DNA from: Armatimonadota bacterium
Lineage (GTDB): Bacteria; Armatimonadota; UBA5829; DSUL01
NCBI GenBank assembly: GCA_025998755.1
Contig: AP024674.1
Coordinates: 1,726,162 to 1,790,161 of the forward strand
DNA length: 64,000 bases
Direction: 5' to 3'
In this document: positions 56,950 through 64,000 of the stretch, piece by piece
Layout: every line of letters begins with the position of its first letter
How positions within the stretch are numbered: the first letter of the stretch is position 1
Made by a program: the position numbers and the translations under genes
Notes under the pieces: generated by a model
Database searches by the model: none
Told to the model about the DNA's origin: nothing
The model's input: the letters and a program-made list of their open reading frames with translations, nothing else

Positions 56950-58584
56950 ATGAGGGTTCTATGCGCCGAAGAGATGCGCGATATGGACCGGCGCGCGTTC
57001 GAGGAGTACGGCATCACCGGGGTCCAGCTGATGGAGATGGCCGGCCGCGCCGTCGCGCTGGTGGCCGACCACGTTCTGCAGGGACGCCTGGCGGGAGAGC
57101 TTCAGGCACATCCGTCGCCCGTGTTGACCTGGCTGGATGATCTGTCCCACGGCCAGACAAGCCTGCCCAGGCGCTCCGGACTCCGGGTATGCGCCGTCTG
57201 CGGTACGGGCAACAACGGGGGAGACGGTTTTGTGGCGGCTCGACATCTGGCAAACTGGGGTTACGACTGCACCATCTTCGTGGCGGGCGACCCGGGGCGC
57301 CTGCGGGGCGAGGCGCGGCTGAACTACGAAGCGCTGGTCCGCCGGGGGCTGCCTGTCATCGACGTCCCCGAAGTCTCCGAGCTGCGGGCACTGGAGCAGG
57401 CTGACTTGATCATTGACGCTCTCCTGGGCACGGGCATCCGCGGCGAGGTGATGGAGCGCATCAGCGAGGTAATGGACATCATCAACTCGGCGGAGGCTCC
57501 CGTGCTGTCCGTGGATATCCCCTCCGGCATCAATGCCGATACAGGGGAGGTATGCGGCAATGCGGTGGTGGCCGATGTCACGGTGACCTTCGCCGCACCC
57601 AAGACGGGCCTTTTGCTGTATCCGGGAGCGGACTTCGCCGGAGCCATCACCGTGGCGGACATTGGCATCCCGGCTCCTCTGATGGATCTGCGCGCGCCCG
57701 CGGGCAAACACATCATTGATGGAGCGATGGTCTCCGAGCTGATCCCGGAGCGGGAGAGCGACTCGCACAAGGGTGACCATGGACACGCGCTGCTGGTTGC
57801 GGGATCCCCCGGCATGACCGGAGCCGCGGAGATGGCGGGGCGCGCCTGCGTGCTCAGCGGGGCCGGATTGACGACGGTGGCGTGTCCCGTCGGAGTGCAC
57901 GCGACGCTGGCGGCGAAGTTCACAGAGGTGATGACCCTTCCCCTCGGCCAGCCATCGGAGGCGGCGCTGGCTCCCTCACATGCGAAGGCGCTGCTGGAAC
58001 AGATGGAACGGTGGACGGCTGTGGGGTTGGGGCCGGGGATCGGCCGAGACCCGCAGACGATCAGCTTTGTTAAAGATATAGTCCCAAAGCTGGACCGCTC
58101 CTTCGTGCTGGATGCAGACGCGCTGTTTGCGCTGGGCGAGGACGCGGCGAAGCTGCTGGCCGGGAAAGCGGATCTGGGCGTCATCACCCCCCACCCCGGT
58201 GAGCTGGCCCGGCTGCTGGGAACAGACGCAGAATGGGTGCAGTCGAACAGGCTGGAGGCGGCGGGCAGGGCCGCGGATGATTTTGGCGTGGTCTGCGTGC
58301 TAAAAGGGGCGCACACCATTGTGGCGGAGCCTCAGGGTCGGGCCTTCTTCAACCTGACCGGCAACGCGGGCCTGGCGAAAGGGGGATCCGGGGACGTTCT
58401 CACCGGCATCATCCTGGCGCTCCTGGCGCAGGGACTCGCACCGGTGGAGGCGGCCGCCGCCGGCGTGTGGCTGCACGGCCGGGCGGCTGATATCGCGGCG
58501 GCGCGAAGCAACCAGATCTCCTTGACCGCCACAGACTGTCTGAAAGCCATTCCCGAGGCGTTCTGCGAGGCGGGCGCGGCCTAG
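56950..58584 (+). CDS. nnr: Bifunctional NAD(P)HX epimerase/dehydratase
   Basis: Repairs hydrated NADH and NADPH. The 544-residue fusion has the YjeF-N epimerase domain at about 1-225 ('GNNGGDGFVAARHL', 'IDALLGTGIRGEV', 'VDIPSGINADTGEV') and the ADP-dependent dehydratase domain at about 240-540 ('GLGPGIGRD', 'VITPHPGELARLLG', 'GGSGDVLTGI'). A proline-containing insertion of about 25 residues lies before the first glycine motif. A normal ATG start follows an AGGAGGC-like site. Confidence 0.95.
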   Translation: MRVLCAEEMRDMDRRAFEEYGITGVQLMEMAGRAVALVADHVLQGRLAGELQAHPSPVLTWLDDLSHGQTSLPRRSGLRVCAVCGTGNNGGDGFVAARHLANWGYDCTIFVAGDPGRLRGEARLNYEALVRRGLPVIDVPEVSELRALEQADLIIDALLGTGIRGEVMERISEVMDIINSAEAPVLSVDIPSGINADTGEVCGNAVVADVTVTFAAPKTGLLLYPGADFAGAITVADIGIPAPLMDLRAPAGKHIIDGAMVSELIPERESDSHKGDHGHALLVAGSPGMTGAAEMAGRACVLSGAGLTTVACPVGVHATLAAKFTEVMTLPLGQPSEAALAPSHAKALLEQMERWTAVGLGPGIGRDPQTISFVKDIVPKLDRSFVLDADALFALGEDAAKLLAGKADLGVITPHPGELARLLGTDAEWVQSNRLEAAGRAADDFGVVCVLKGAHTIVAEPQGRAFFNLTGNAGLAKGGSGDVLTGIILALLAQGLAPVEAAAAGVWLHGRAADIAAARSNQISLTATDCLKAIPEAFCEAGAA

Positions 58585-58620: not shown

Positions 58621-59961
58621 ATGAAGGCGATGGTGCGTTGGAGCATCGCAGCGCTGACGGCGCTTTTCCTCTGTATCTTTCTGAGGACGGCTACGCTGGC
58701 AGCGCCGCCGGTGGGTGAGAAGGGGGACACGCCGGCGGCATCCTCCGCCGCGGATACCAAAGCGCCCCCCCAAGAAACAGCCCCCGGAAATGAAGCCAAA
58801 AAAGATTCGCCCAAAGAGAATGTCTCCGCCTCTGAGCTGAAGGGCAAGGTGCTGCCTCCCTCCGAGGGCGACTGGGTCTGGTGGGTGGAAGACGCCGATG
58901 GGAACGTGACGGCGGGGCCCATCGTCGCCCGGGGCGAGCAGTTCGAATGGGCAGCGGAAGCACCGGCAAAGCCTGAAGGAACGCTTCGCGTGCTGAACCG
59001 CCGGACCGGGAATATCGCCGCCTTGCCACTGGCAGACGCAGCGGACAAAGAGCCCAAGCTGGTGGATGCGGATTTCTCAGCGGCACACAGGTTGAAGGTG
59101 AAGGTGACGGGACGGTCCGGCGACCCGGTGGCGGCGGCTTTCGTTCGGCTGACCGACAGCGAAGGCAACGTGCAGACTCAAATAATTGCCGAGACGGACC
59201 GCGGCGAAGCCGTCTTCCACAACGTGGCGCTCGGGAAAGCCACTATCGAGGCCCGGTCGGGCGATGTGGGAATCACGCAAGAGGTGCGCCTGGAGCGTGA
59301 GAGAAAGAGCCCTGAGGCTCTGGCCGAGGTGGTGCTGGCTGGAGACGTGCCCACCGTCCCCGCCAAGGGCGACAGCGAAAGCCCGGGCAAGAAAGAGGAG
59401 CGCGCTCCCGCTGGCGGCGCCAGGACTCTCCAGGCGGTGGTCTCGCTGATCATCCTGGCGGCGGTGGTGGTCATTCTGGCCATCGTTCTCAAAAACCGGC
59501 GGGTGACCCTGCGCTCGGCCCTGCAGAAGGCAGGGATCGCCATCGAGGAAGATCAACCCGCCGCTACTCCAGCGCCGGTGCCTCCCGGAGTCCCGCCGCT
59601 CGACCCGGACCTTGTGGGGCCCGCTCCGACCGTCCCGCCCACGTCCGCTCCAGGGCCAGCCGCGGCACCCTCCGGCCCGAAACTGGTGGGTGTAGCTGGC
59701 AGATATGCGGGCGTGATCTTTCCCGTGAAGCCCGACGTCGCAGTTATCGGCAGAGAGATGACCTGCGACATCGCCCTGACGGACGATGCGACCACATCCC
59801 GCAGACACGCCACCATCAGCCGCTCGGGGGACGCGTTCGTCATCCGGGATGAGGGGAGCTCCAACGGTACGCTGGTCAACGGACTGAAGATCACCGAACA
59901 CCCCCTGAAGAACGGGGACGAGGTGCAGATCGGCTCCACCCGTTTCCGTTTCGAAGCCTGA
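58621..59961 (+). CDS. Membrane-anchored FHA domain protein
   Basis: A 446-residue protein: signal peptide about 1-28, an extracytoplasmic region with a beta-sandwich-like domain at about 155-240 ('RLKVKVTGRSGDPVAAAFVRL'), a transmembrane helix at about 270-291, a proline linker, and a cytoplasmic FHA domain at 353-446. The FHA domain has the phosphothreonine-binding residues: G377-R378, 'SRRH' 393-396 and 'SSNGTLVNG'. It could link an outside signal to threonine phosphorylation inside. It opens the FHA-VWA-PP2C island. Confidence 0.9.
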   Translation: MKAMVRWSIAALTALFLCIFLRTATLAAPPVGEKGDTPAASSAADTKAPPQETAPGNEAKKDSPKENVSASELKGKVLPPSEGDWVWWVEDADGNVTAGPIVARGEQFEWAAEAPAKPEGTLRVLNRRTGNIAALPLADAADKEPKLVDADFSAAHRLKVKVTGRSGDPVAAAFVRLTDSEGNVQTQIIAETDRGEAVFHNVALGKATIEARSGDVGITQEVRLERERKSPEALAEVVLAGDVPTVPAKGDSESPGKKEERAPAGGARTLQAVVSLIILAAVVVILAIVLKNRRVTLRSALQKAGIAIEEDQPAATPAPVPPGVPPLDPDLVGPAPTVPPTSAPGPAAAPSGPKLVGVAGRYAGVIFPVKPDVAVIGREMTCDIALTDDATTSRRHATISRSGDAFVIRDEGSSNGTLVNGLKITEHPLKNGDEVQIGSTRFRFEA

Positions 59962-59968
59962 GCGCCCT

Positions 59969-61417
59969 ATGGTCTCACTGGTCAAGCTGACCCGCAACCT
60001 GATCGGAGGGGTGGCCGGGGCCATCGCCGGGTGGCTCATCGTGGAGCCCTGGCCCTGGCTGACCACCGACCCCGCCCCCGGTCAGCCGTCACCGACATCG
60101 CTCGCCGCGCTGGCGGTGCTGGGGATGATCGTGGGCGGCGCGATGGGAGCCGGGCTGGGAGCCGCGGAGGGCGTCAACTCGGGGTCGCAGAGGCAACTTG
60201 CCCGTTCGCTTGCCATCGGGCTGCTGGTCGGGGTGGCGGGAGGGCTGGTTGGCATCTATCTGGGCCAGATGATCTACGCAGCGCTCGCTCCGTCGCCGGG
60301 AGGCGTGGGGGGGCTGCTGGATTTCGTCAGCCAGATGGTGGCGCGAACGCTGGGATGGGCGCTCTGGGGAGTGCTGATCGGGGCAGCGCAGGGAATTGCC
60401 ACAGGTTCGGCCCGGCGGATCGCCCTGGGAGCGCTGGGCGGTGTCGCTGGAGGAGCGGCAGGCGGCTTCGTTTTCGAGCTGCTGGCGCAGACAACGGGCG
60501 GGCTGATGACGGGGGAAGCGCTCAGACTGCTGGGATTCGTCTCCATCGGTGCGGGAATCGGGCTGCTCTCCTCGCTGGCGCAGGAAATGTTCAAGCAGGC
60601 GTGGGTCCGGGTTCTGGTGGGCCGTGGAGAAGGCCGCGAGTTCCAGATCGCCAAACCGGAGACCTTCGTGGGACGGGACGAGCTTGCAGACATCCCGCTG
60701 TTCGGCGACCCGCAGATCGCGAAGCGGCACCTGATCATCCGGCAGGTGAACGGGCGCTATGAAGCGGTTGCGGCGCAGCCAGGCCTAGCCTTCTCGGTGA
60801 ACGGACAGATGGTGTCCAGCGCTCCGCTGAAGGACGGCGATATCATCGGGGTGGGGTCACGCCAACTTGAGTTCCATGAGCGGGTCACCCGCACGGCCGC
60901 CGGAGCCGCGATGGGATATCCGCCATCTCCGTGGTCCGGGCAGGCCACTCAGGTGAGCACGCCTCCGCCGGTGGAGACACCGCCGGGAGTCTGCGCCTTC
61001 TGCGGGCAGACTAAAGATGCTTATGGCGGATGCGCCTGCACGGTGGGAGCGCCGTCTCCGGTGCAGACGGCCGACTACGTGCCTGGCCAGGCCACCGGAG
61101 CCACAACGCAGGTGATGGGAGCGGGAGCCGTCTGGACGCTTCAGGTGATCTCCGGGCCGCAGGCCGGGCGCAGCTTGACTCTCTCGGAGGGGCATACAGT
61201 GACCGCCGGCCGGTCGCCGGATGCCGATCTGTCGCTGGAAGGGGACACGTTCGCTTCGCGCAGGCATGCCGTATTTTCGGTGCAGGGAGGGCAACCGGTG
61301 GTGGAGGACGCAGGGAGCACCAACGGCACTCTGGTCAACGGGGTTCGCGTGACCCGGCACACGCTGACGAGCGGCGACACTGTGAGCATCGGGCAGACGC
61401 AGATCCGCGTGGTCTGA
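59969..61417 (+). CDS. Multi-span membrane protein with two FHA domains
   Basis: A 482-residue protein. The first 200 residues hold several glycine/alanine-rich membrane segments. Next come a first FHA domain at about 213-300 ('VGRDELADIPLFGDPQIAKRHL'), a linker with a CxxC...CxC zinc-ribbon-like 'CAFCGQTKDAYGGCAC' and a TTQVMGAG motif. A second, canonical FHA domain lies at about 390-482 ('AGRSPDADL', 'SRRHAVF', 'STNGTLVNG'). The first FHA lacks the S/T-N-G-T loop and may be degenerate. It lies 7 bases after the preceding gene. Confidence 0.88.
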   Translation: MVSLVKLTRNLIGGVAGAIAGWLIVEPWPWLTTDPAPGQPSPTSLAALAVLGMIVGGAMGAGLGAAEGVNSGSQRQLARSLAIGLLVGVAGGLVGIYLGQMIYAALAPSPGGVGGLLDFVSQMVARTLGWALWGVLIGAAQGIATGSARRIALGALGGVAGGAAGGFVFELLAQTTGGLMTGEALRLLGFVSIGAGIGLLSSLAQEMFKQAWVRVLVGRGEGREFQIAKPETFVGRDELADIPLFGDPQIAKRHLIIRQVNGRYEAVAAQPGLAFSVNGQMVSSAPLKDGDIIGVGSRQLEFHERVTRTAAGAAMGYPPSPWSGQATQVSTPPPVETPPGVCAFCGQTKDAYGGCACTVGAPSPVQTADYVPGQATGATTQVMGAGAVWTLQVISGPQAGRSLTLSEGHTVTAGRSPDADLSLEGDTFASRRHAVFSVQGGQPVVEDAGSTNGTLVNGVRVTRHTLTSGDTVSIGQTQIRVV

Positions 61418-61441
61418 ACACGCGACAGGAGCCAGAACATT

Positions 61442-62794
61442 ATGGACAGGACTCAGCAACTGGGAGGAGATGCCGACCGCACACGCGCCATCCATCCCAA
61501 TCCGTCAGTGACACAGGCGATGGGGGCGGATCCCGGCCGGACGCAGATGGCCGGGATGGACACGGGCTCGGTGCAACTGGAGGTTATCGCGGGGAACACG
61601 CACGCCCTGTCCACACGCAACACGCGGGAGCATGTGCTGGTGCGGGCGCGCGCCGGGCAGTTCGCCTCGGGCCAGCGAATGCCCCTGAACATCTGTCTGC
61701 TGCTGGACCGCAGCGGCTCCATGGAAGGACAGCCGCTGGAGTTCGCAAAGCAGGCGATGTATTACGTGGTGGATCTGCTGCAACCCGCGGACGTGCTCTC
61801 CATCGTCACCTTTGAAGACACGGTGGAGGTGCTAATGCCGGCCCGAAGGGTTGTGAACAAGGACCTCATCAAGCAGCACATCGCCCGCATCCAGCCAGGG
61901 AACACCACCAATCTGTACGATGGTTTCGTCGCGGCGTGCAGCCAGGTGGCCTCTGTGCCGCCCGGCTACATCAACCGCGTGCTCCTGCTGACAGACGGCG
62001 AGCCAACCGCCGGTTTGACGGATTTCCAGTCGATTGTGGGCCAGGTGGCGGAGCAGAAAAGTCGCGGCATCACCCTGACCGCACTCGGCTTCGGGCAGGA
62101 GTACAATGAGGAGCTGCTGGCCGGGATGGCCAAGCGCTCCGGAGGCAACTACTACTATATTCCCCGCCCCGAGATGCTGCCCGAGGTGTTCCGCCGGGAG
62201 ATGGACGCGCTGATGTCCGTGGTGGCCCGGAACCTGCGACTGACATTCCGGCTTCCCCGATGGACGCAGGTACGGCAGGTCTACGGCAAACTGCCAGTAT
62301 GGGGGGACCGTCGAGTGGATGTGACCTTGGCGGACCTGGAGCGCGGAGCGGCCGTCTCCGCGCTGGCGGAGCTGGAGCTGGGGAACCGTCCTGCGGGCAC
62401 GTACCGTGTGGCGCAGGTGGAGCTCGTGTATGACGACGTCGTCAGCGGCCGCGAGGAGCGCCGCAGCGCGGATGTGGTGCTTGAGTTCACCGCGGACGAG
62501 GGTCTGGTGAAGGCGGGACGCAACCCGATGGTGGACCAGGAGCTGGAAGTGGCGCTGGCGTCGCGCAACCTGGAGCAGACCGTAATGGGGATGCGCACCC
62601 AGGCCATTAGCGCGACGGCGGCTGTGGCGGAACTCGAAAAGACCCAGGCGCTGCTGGCGGCGCAGGGGAGGACTCTGGAGGCGGCCCAACTGCAGGAAGC
62701 GATAAACGCAGCCAGGGCCGGCGAAGACCTGCAAAAGACCCTAGTGGGCACCATCCTGAATCTGGACCAGGGAAAGACGCGATCGGGAGACTAG
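61442..62794 (+). CDS. VWA domain protein with TQ-rich N terminus
   Basis: A 450-residue cytoplasmic protein. The VWA domain at about 82-260 has a complete metal site: D89-x-S91-x-S93 in 'LLDRSGSM', a downstream threonine in 'PGNTTNLYDG' and aspartate in 'LLTDGEPT'. The first 40 residues are rich in threonine-glutamine pairs ('RTQQL', 'VTQAMGAD', 'RTQMAGMD'), plausible phosphothreonine sites for FHA partners. A helical tail ends the protein. There are no membrane segments. VWA proteins with PP2C and kinase neighbours occur in TerY-type and other phospho-signalling clusters. Confidence 0.9.
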   Translation: MDRTQQLGGDADRTRAIHPNPSVTQAMGADPGRTQMAGMDTGSVQLEVIAGNTHALSTRNTREHVLVRARAGQFASGQRMPLNICLLLDRSGSMEGQPLEFAKQAMYYVVDLLQPADVLSIVTFEDTVEVLMPARRVVNKDLIKQHIARIQPGNTTNLYDGFVAACSQVASVPPGYINRVLLLTDGEPTAGLTDFQSIVGQVAEQKSRGITLTALGFGQEYNEELLAGMAKRSGGNYYYIPRPEMLPEVFRREMDALMSVVARNLRLTFRLPRWTQVRQVYGKLPVWGDRRVDVTLADLERGAAVSALAELELGNRPAGTYRVAQVELVYDDVVSGREERRSADVVLEFTADEGLVKAGRNPMVDQELEVALASRNLEQTVMGMRTQAISATAAVAELEKTQALLAAQGRTLEAAQLQEAINAARAGEDLQKTLVGTILNLDQGKTRSGD

Positions 62795-62806
62795 AGGGAG
62801 GACGCA

Positions 62807-63766
62807 ATGCAGGACCAGGAACGTACGATGCTGGCGGGCGGAGCGCCCGACGCGGGACGGACCCAAGCGCTTCCTCAGGCGGAGGCCACGCAGATGGGCG
62901 CATCGGTGGAATGCCCGGTCTGCCGCTCCCGCAACATTCCAGGGGATCTTTTCTGCTGGGACTGCGGATTCCTGCTGACGGGCACTCCCGGTGAGGCTCC
63001 GGAGGCTCCTCGCGGACCTACCGCGAAGCTTGTTGACCCACGAAGCGGACGCAGCTTCGCGCTGCAGAAGGGCCTGAACACCGTGGGACGGCAGGACACG
63101 GACGTGCTGCTGAGCGACCCGAGCGTCAGCCGCCGTCACGCAACCATTGAGGTTCGCGAGTCGGATGCCGTGGTCACAGACACCGGCAGCACCAATGGAA
63201 CCCTCGTGGCGGGAACCCGTCTGGGAGAGGGTGAGCAGGCCGTCATCAGCGCAGGGCAGGAGGTTCGCTTCGGCAATTGTGCGCTGATCTTCGAAATGGA
63301 AGCCGTGCAGGAATCATCAACTGGTGATGAACCGCCCGACGCCGAAGCTCAGTCCCCGGGGGAAGCTGTTGCGGAGGTAACGCCGGAACCGGAGCCGGAG
63401 GGCGAAGAAAGGTTGGAGGAAGCCGGGCCGTCCGGAGCCGCAGAGGCTGAGGAACTCTCCGGTCAAGCCGTTGGGGTTCTGACAGTGAGGGAGACAGGGG
63501 AGCGATTCACTGTGGGGCCTGACGGAGCGAGCATTGGAAGGCGGTCCAGCAACGACATCGTGCTGTCCGATGCCTATGTCTCGGGCCAGCACGCCATTAT
63601 TGCATTCCGGGACGGCGCGTTCCACCTGACTGACATCGGAAGCACGAACGGAACACTTTTGAACGGCAACCGTCTTGAGCCGAACGTGCCGGCAGAGCTT
63701 TCCGCCGGCGATGAGATCCGGATGGGTCAGCTGACCCTTGAGTTCTCCCTGGAGGAGGCGGGGTGA
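62807..63766 (+). CDS. Zinc-ribbon protein with two FHA domains
   Basis: A 319-residue protein. The N-terminal tail carries 'RTMLAGG', 'RTQAL' and 'ATQMGA', followed by a zinc ribbon ('CPVC' and 'CWDC', 36-53). A first FHA domain lies at about 72-165 ('VGRQDTDV', 'SRRHATIEV', 'STNGTLV'), then an acidic linker, and a second FHA at about 222-315 ('IGRRSSNDI', 'SGQHAII', 'STNGTLLNG'). Both have the binding loops. In the second, the usual arginine of S-R-x-H is replaced by glycine-glutamine, which may change affinity. Its stop overlaps the phosphatase start (TGATG). Confidence 0.9.
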   Translation: MQDQERTMLAGGAPDAGRTQALPQAEATQMGASVECPVCRSRNIPGDLFCWDCGFLLTGTPGEAPEAPRGPTAKLVDPRSGRSFALQKGLNTVGRQDTDVLLSDPSVSRRHATIEVRESDAVVTDTGSTNGTLVAGTRLGEGEQAVISAGQEVRFGNCALIFEMEAVQESSTGDEPPDAEAQSPGEAVAEVTPEPEPEGEERLEEAGPSGAAEAEELSGQAVGVLTVRETGERFTVGPDGASIGRRSSNDIVLSDAYVSGQHAIIAFRDGAFHLTDIGSTNGTLLNGNRLEPNVPAELSAGDEIRMGQLTLEFSLEEAG

Positions 63767-64000
63767 TGGCCGAGGAGACGGAGATCACGGCCCGCTTCGC
63801 CCGGGAGGAGCTGCAGGCTGGCTGGAACGAGCGCGGCACTCCGGCGCGGCGCTTCGCCCGTCTGCTGCTGGGAGCGAAGACCGACCTTGGCTGCGTGCGG
63901 GAAAACAACGAGGATAAGTTCGAATTCTATATCCCCTCGGACGCTCGCGTGCTGGCATGGAGGGGGATCGCGCTTGCCGTCTCGGACGGTATGGGCGGGC
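63766..64000 (+). CDS. PP2C-family serine/threonine phosphatase, N-terminal part
   Basis: The first 78 codons of a gene cut by the window end. After a 35-residue N-terminal extension the PP2C opening is clear: 'GAKTDLGCVRENNEDKFE' with its metal-binding aspartate, then 'ALAVSDGMGG', the second metal motif. It would remove phosphate from serine and threonine residues, the counterpart of the FHA readers upstream. A Ser/Thr kinase is expected beyond the window but is not seen. ATG overlaps the previous stop. Confidence 0.9.
   Translation, partial: MAEETEITARFAREELQAGWNERGTPARRFARLLLGAKTDLGCVRENNEDKFEFYIPSDARVLAWRGIALAVSDGMGG

Follow-up and report, generated by a model that had tools for sequence, protein, structure and literature searches.

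The analysed window was a 64,000-nucleotide stretch (G000:C1:1726162-1790161) of a 3.29 Mb genome whose related loci were labelled Armatimonadetes or Armatimonadota. On its plus strand, 58621-64000 held genes A to D and the start of gene E, which is cut by the window end; together with kinase gene F, located beyond the window, they form a compact signalling cluster of six genes (Table 1). Genes A to D were spaced by 7-25 bp, the stop codon of D overlapped the start of E, and kinase gene F began 83 bp past E. According to Pfam, A contained one FHA domain, B two FHA stretches, D two FHA domains, C a VWA domain only, E a PP2C domain, and F a Pkinase domain together with a TM helix and TPR. A first-pass annotation of this DNA had proposed looking for a Ser/Thr kinase beyond position 64000, and a Hanks-type kinase was indeed encoded directly after the PP2C gene; its heading 'VWA-FHA', however, corresponds to two adjacent genes, C and D, and not to a single protein. 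The A-F cluster accounted for all PF00498 matches of the 3.29 Mb genome, which encoded three kinases and two PP2C proteins in all.

Table 1. Features of the A-F cluster (window coordinates; those of F lie beyond the window)
Feature	Position	Strand	Evidence or remark
Gene A: N-terminal anchor helix, extracytoplasmic beta-rich domain, TM helix, cytoplasmic FHA	58621..59961	+	Pfam FHA, 2.9e-19; AlphaFold layout
A, predicted domain limits: beta-rich domain, ~residues 72-240; second TM helix, residues 269-303			AlphaFold layout (predicted)
FHA domain of A	59743..59934	+	PF00498 at G000:C1:1785904-1786095
Gene B: glycine-rich multi-TM region, degenerate FHA1, Cys-rich linker, FHA2	59969..61417	+	Pfam
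TTQVMGAG in B, directly before FHA2	61103..61126	+	Not kept in orthologues
FHA2 of B	61199..61393	+	PF00498 match
Gene C: ArnB-type VWA protein	61442..62794	+	Pfam VWA; AlphaFold; Foldseek
C N-tail, predicted disordered: T4, T14, T24, T34 (RTQQLG, RTRAI, VTQAMG, RTQMAG)	61442..61567	+	
C C-terminal helix bundle: T380, T386 (LEQTVMGMRTQ), T401, T433, T437 (KTLVGT)	62498..62782	+	
Gene D: threonine-motif tail, zinc ribbon, two FHA (ArnA-like layout)	62807..63766	+	
D N-tail: RTMLAGG, RTQAL, ATQMGA	62807..62911	+	Orthologue conservation; shuffle test
Zinc ribbon of D, C-x2-C-x10-C-x2-C	62912..62965	+	Cys 94-100% conserved, 57 orthologues
FHA1 of D	63080..63274	+	PF00498 match
FHA2 of D	63530..63727	+	PF00498 match
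Gene E: PP2C-type Ser/Thr phosphatase, start	63766..64000, continuing to ~64743	+	Pfam PP2C; NCBIfam
Gene F: Hanks-type kinase	~64827-66512 (L010:6489-8174)		Pfam

Among the neighbours of the cluster loci, only the NAD(P)H-hydrate epimerase/dehydratase gene nnr (56950-58584), directly upstream of A, was widely conserved (38 loci); its position probably reflects synteny only, and this neighbour analysis gave no clue to the output of the cluster. Downstream of F (L010:8352-17556), genes for a PEP-CTERM protein, a Wzz/GNVR tyrosine-kinase-like protein, an SLBB exporter and an exosortase were observed. An Rfam search returned no match.

Four FHA domains of the cluster (A, B-FHA2, D-FHA1 and D-FHA2) keep the residues for phosphothreonine binding, the Arg/Ser/His/Asn of the pocket being 100% conserved, as counted over 38 orthologues of A and 41 of B; in B-FHA1, the pocket Ser has been lost. 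The best PDB match of both the FHA region of A and the FHA domains of D was GarA; D also matched OdhI and, more weakly than these two, ArnA. The spacing of the zinc ribbon of D is identical to that of ArnA C21/C24/C35/C38 as given in PMC12852372. Protein E scored 234 bits as a Stp1-type PP2C, above the NCBIfam cut-off of 230.

The AlphaFold model of C (pLDDT 81.8) showed a disordered N-tail, a VWA domain, a beta-sandwich and a C-terminal four-helix bundle with helices at 362-385, 391-407, 411-425 and 431-443. Its best PDB match by Foldseek was 8s05, in which ArnB is complexed with ArnA (E 2.4e-25, TM 0.79 by target), followed by the ArnB paralogue 5a8j and by 4fx5 from Catenulispora. The sequence profile of C matched ArnB over columns 87-430 (9.9e-15), in agreement with the fold match; the Pfam ArnB_C model had no match in 10 members of C up to E 5. 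Since C is devoid of an FHA domain according to Pfam, the GarA/OdhI-type binding of a phosphorylated tail by the protein's own FHA domain, as evoked in the first-pass annotation, is ruled out for this protein, and the tail of C must be read in trans.

All motifs quoted in that annotation (TTQVMGAG, VTQAMGAD, RTQMAGMD, RTMLAGG, RTQAL and ATQMGA) were present in frame in B, C and D, and the tail of C also carried RTQQLGG. Comparison of 64 Armatimonadota orthologues of C gave the tail motif as a tandem [RK]-T-Q/x-x-hydrophobic-G; in the form [DPN][RK]-T-Q/x-x-hydrophobic-[GA], it occurred in one to five copies per N-tail in most orthologues, with variable linkers. Two registers were distinguished, T-x-hydrophobic-G and T-x-x-hydrophobic, which suggests a loose specificity. 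The tail threonines of C were Thr in 73-86% and Ser in 0-3% of the 64 orthologues, and residues 1-40 had a pLDDT of about 32 in the AlphaFold model. In many families, the tail of D ended in a near-constant ATQM[GA]xS, ahead of the zinc ribbon. The expectation that the TQ motifs would be conserved between orthologues thus held for the tails of C and D, strictly as Thr and not Ser, but not for B, whose TTQVMG was rejected as a conserved site. No conserved TQ motif was found in orthologues of F, A or E.

The residues P, A, T, G, M and Q abound in these tails, and one could argue that disordered segments of high Thr and Gln content yield TQ by chance. Shuffling each tail gave far fewer motifs: in the 64 C tails, 106 TQ were observed against 23.0 +/- 4.6, 70 DPx[RK]T against 0.2 and 88 core [RK]T motifs against 1.7, and in the D tails 72 TQ against 18.3. 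The 64 C tails were taken as extracted, from 18 families, with start codons picked by rule, and the p-values of these tests are inexact because the sequences are related and the starts rule-chosen. The TQ density was 38 per 1000 aa in C tails versus 1.4 in background ORFs, and the C tail was the sole segment with three TQ inside 45 aa in any frame of the window and of three large stretches of the same genome. Conservation of the motif columns also speaks against a composition artefact, and a DNA repeat was rejected, as direct repeats were absent and the threonine codons differed. Chance composition was rejected by the shuffle tests as the source of the tail motifs and can hardly be entertained.

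On a genome-wide scale, TQxMG gave only 7 matches, two of them in this cluster, the same number as its reversed control, so that no regulon claim is possible and its use as a genome-wide regulon mark was rejected. A second kinase (L011:3248-5656; G000:C1:2363247-2365655) carried HQTQFVVGG and HQTQVVMGA in a linker, and the adjoining zinc-ribbon protein RTQF and GRTQMG; each may be a further client of the FHA proteins. The closest relative of this kinase (L171) kept NQTVYAP alone and had the zinc ribbon fused. In several families, a DnaJ-like segment was apparent by eye in the D proteins (L068, L069, L070, L077, L087, L092, L093, L105 and L109), N-terminal to the threonine motifs and the zinc ribbon.

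The strongest sites were absent from the first-pass annotation, as was the ArnA/ArnB match: these were near-invariant threonines in the helix bundle of C, namely T380 (100%, 64/64), T386 (95%), T401 (97%), T433 (97%) and T437 (89%), with Ser in 0-3%. The motifs of the bundle, LE[KR]T[VIM]MGx[KR]TQ and EKTLxGT, are similar to that of the tails. The almost complete avoidance of Ser at the tail and bundle positions of C is as expected with phosphothreonine-specific FHA readers, but the bundle threonines could also be conserved for structure rather than for phosphorylation.

Could the tails act within their own proteins? In a self-inhibition of the GarA/OdhI type, the N-tail of D (or B), once phosphorylated, would fold onto the protein's own FHA domain and switch the binding surface of that domain. 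Protein D combines a threonine-motif tail with FHA domains whose best PDB matches are GarA and OdhI, and the same arrangement of an N-terminal phosphothreonine site and an FHA domain in one protein is known in GarA and OdhI of Actinobacteria and in DgcB of Bdellovibrio. However, these proteins have a single short site bound in cis, whereas tandem arrays are found here, and it is C, a protein devoid of FHA domains, that carries the richest and best conserved motifs; the motif of B is not conserved, and D remained under the cut-off of the NCBIfam OdhI model (100.6 versus 200 bits). We consider self-inhibition unlikely.

The tails might alternatively serve as unphosphorylated docking peptides, for instance with the D of DPNRT placed in the VWA MIDAS, or as peptide ligands of the zinc ribbon. 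The D-P-N flank is enriched at -4 to -2 of the tail Thr, and the contact of the ArnA zinc finger with ArnB needs no phosphorylation, according to PMC12852372. But many motif copies lack the acidic flank residue although the Thr is kept and Ser avoided, and conserved FHA domains, a kinase and a phosphatase co-occur with C, which renders docking without phosphorylation highly improbable.

Orthologues of C were found in 129 of 201 Armatimonadota genomes, about 119 of them strong, and the order A-B-C-D-E-F was found in many families (60 fetched genome regions and ten public loci). The lack of a kinase in or near the cluster of relatives, which would have spoken against the proposed network, did not occur, the A-F operon being conserved across the phylum. 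Among the 201 genomes, 112 had both C and D, seven C without D, two D without C and 80 neither, and C, D and the signature of F occurred together in 103; their co-occurrence gave p ~1e-31 to 1e-45 with phylogeny ignored. In a few genomes, C was found without detected D or F. At the family level, the TQ contents of the C and D tails, computed on fixed tail windows, were correlated (rho 0.76, n=18 families), but some pattern definitions gave no correlation; in families f18 and f25, the motifs were nearly gone from both tails.

In Fimbriimonadaceae (f16), the module was split into A-B-C, D-E and F at three places, and a PP2C gene lay within 1 kb of D in 9 of 10 fetched loci. The DPN[RK]T style was common to the C and D tails in this family despite the unlinked genes, which favours a common writer or reader over operon history. 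When four whole genomes were searched for the pattern, clusters of in-frame copies came up in C and in D, while the other matches examined were single. One outgroup family (L100:4852-6841) displayed a minimal pair, an ArnB-type VWA protein ending in TGTKRLRYETQRLT and an FHA protein with two zinc ribbons, and no kinase was found beside it among the ORFs listed.

In kinase F, the catalytic motifs HRD and DFG were retained, as was the lysine of VALK type. Its glycine-rich loop was non-canonical and read EI[AG]RSND[IV]V in those orthologues whose segment was displayed; searched as a DNA pattern, this loop occurred in 114 of 201 genomes, as a single copy in all but one, which had two, and the reversed control gave zero. 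The activity of F is uncertain because of this RSND loop, and the writer of the sites could be a different kinase. The TPR segment of F sits past its TM helix and, with the extracytoplasmic beta domain predicted for A, would suit envelope sensing; the membrane parts of the module suggest that the signal concerns the cell envelope or stress.

Taken together, the module is probably a bacterial Arn-like phosphothreonine switch, in which F writes, A, B and D read through their FHA domains, and E erases. This reading is based on gene content, conservation, FHA pockets, motif statistics, co-occurrence and the predicted fold of C, and from these sequence data we infer the phosphorylation by F, the FHA binding and the direction of signalling. 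Kinase F would phosphorylate threonines in the disordered N-tails of C and D and in the C-terminal helix bundle of C. The phosphorylated sites would be bound by the FHA domains of D, which is soluble, and of A and B at the membrane, and this docking would recruit the VWA protein C to D and to the membrane. The presence of several sites may provide avidity and a graded response, and removal of the phosphates by E would reset the switch.

The closest known system is the ArnA/ArnB/ArnC/PP2A archaellum switch of Sulfolobus acidocaldarius. According to PMC12852372 and PMC6509490, the Sulfolobus kinase ArnC phosphorylates Thr in the ArnB helix bundle and the FHA domain of ArnA binds them; the zinc finger of ArnA contacts ArnB in the absence of phosphorylation and so keeps the two proteins in a loose complex (PMC12852372). 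The module shares with it the three-part ArnB fold of C, the C-x2-C-x10-C-x2-C zinc finger N-terminal to FHA in D, the Hanks kinase and the phosphatase, as well as conserved Thr in the helix bundle of C, a likeness of presence and not necessarily of position with regard to ArnB T343/T353. It differs in being bacterial and without an archaellum, in having PP2C instead of PP2A, in the extra N-tails of C and D, which are disordered and bear repeated threonine motifs, in the two FHA domains of D where ArnA has one, and in the additional membrane FHA proteins A and B. Its six genes also lie mostly in one operon, and C has no Pfam ArnB_C match. Control of archaellum expression, a trait of the Arn network, does not apply to the host, a bacterial Armatimonadota genome, and the module is classed as Arn-like but not as a member of the Arn regulatory network.

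The type VI secretion PpkA/PppA/Fha threonine-phosphorylation pathway likewise has a kinase, a PP2C and an FHA protein encoded side by side. The D protein scored 111.4 bits with the model of TagH, a T6SS-associated FHA protein, below the cut-off of 120.25, and reading of 20 kb around the cluster revealed no secretion genes. Nor were Ter proteins, linkage to which marks the VWA/kinase/PP2C triads of the TerY-P type, seen among the ORFs read there.

The feature is real and conserved, and its novelty in an Arn-like FHA/VWA switch is the multivalent threonine tails; that of C has no counterpart in the accessible parts of the ArnB descriptions (PMC6509490, PMC12852372). The ArnA/ArnB architecture, studied in archaea, is hereby extended to bacteria. 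A wider and more speculative proposal, which we put forward tentatively, is a closed phylum-wide writer-reader-eraser system, in which one kinase with a unique RSND loop may write a short threonine code on multivalent tails, to be read by the complete or almost complete set of cellular FHA domains; with the simpler outgroup pairs of VWA and zinc-ribbon FHA proteins, it might tie ArnAB to a broader lineage of bacterial switches. To our knowledge, few physiological ligands of bacterial FHA domains have been described, and within the library searched, Armatimonadetes and FHA domains were not mentioned together in any paper. Likely FHA ligands can here be read from the sequence, are conserved across the phylum and adjoin their putative writer, readers and eraser, so that the pairing is directly testable.
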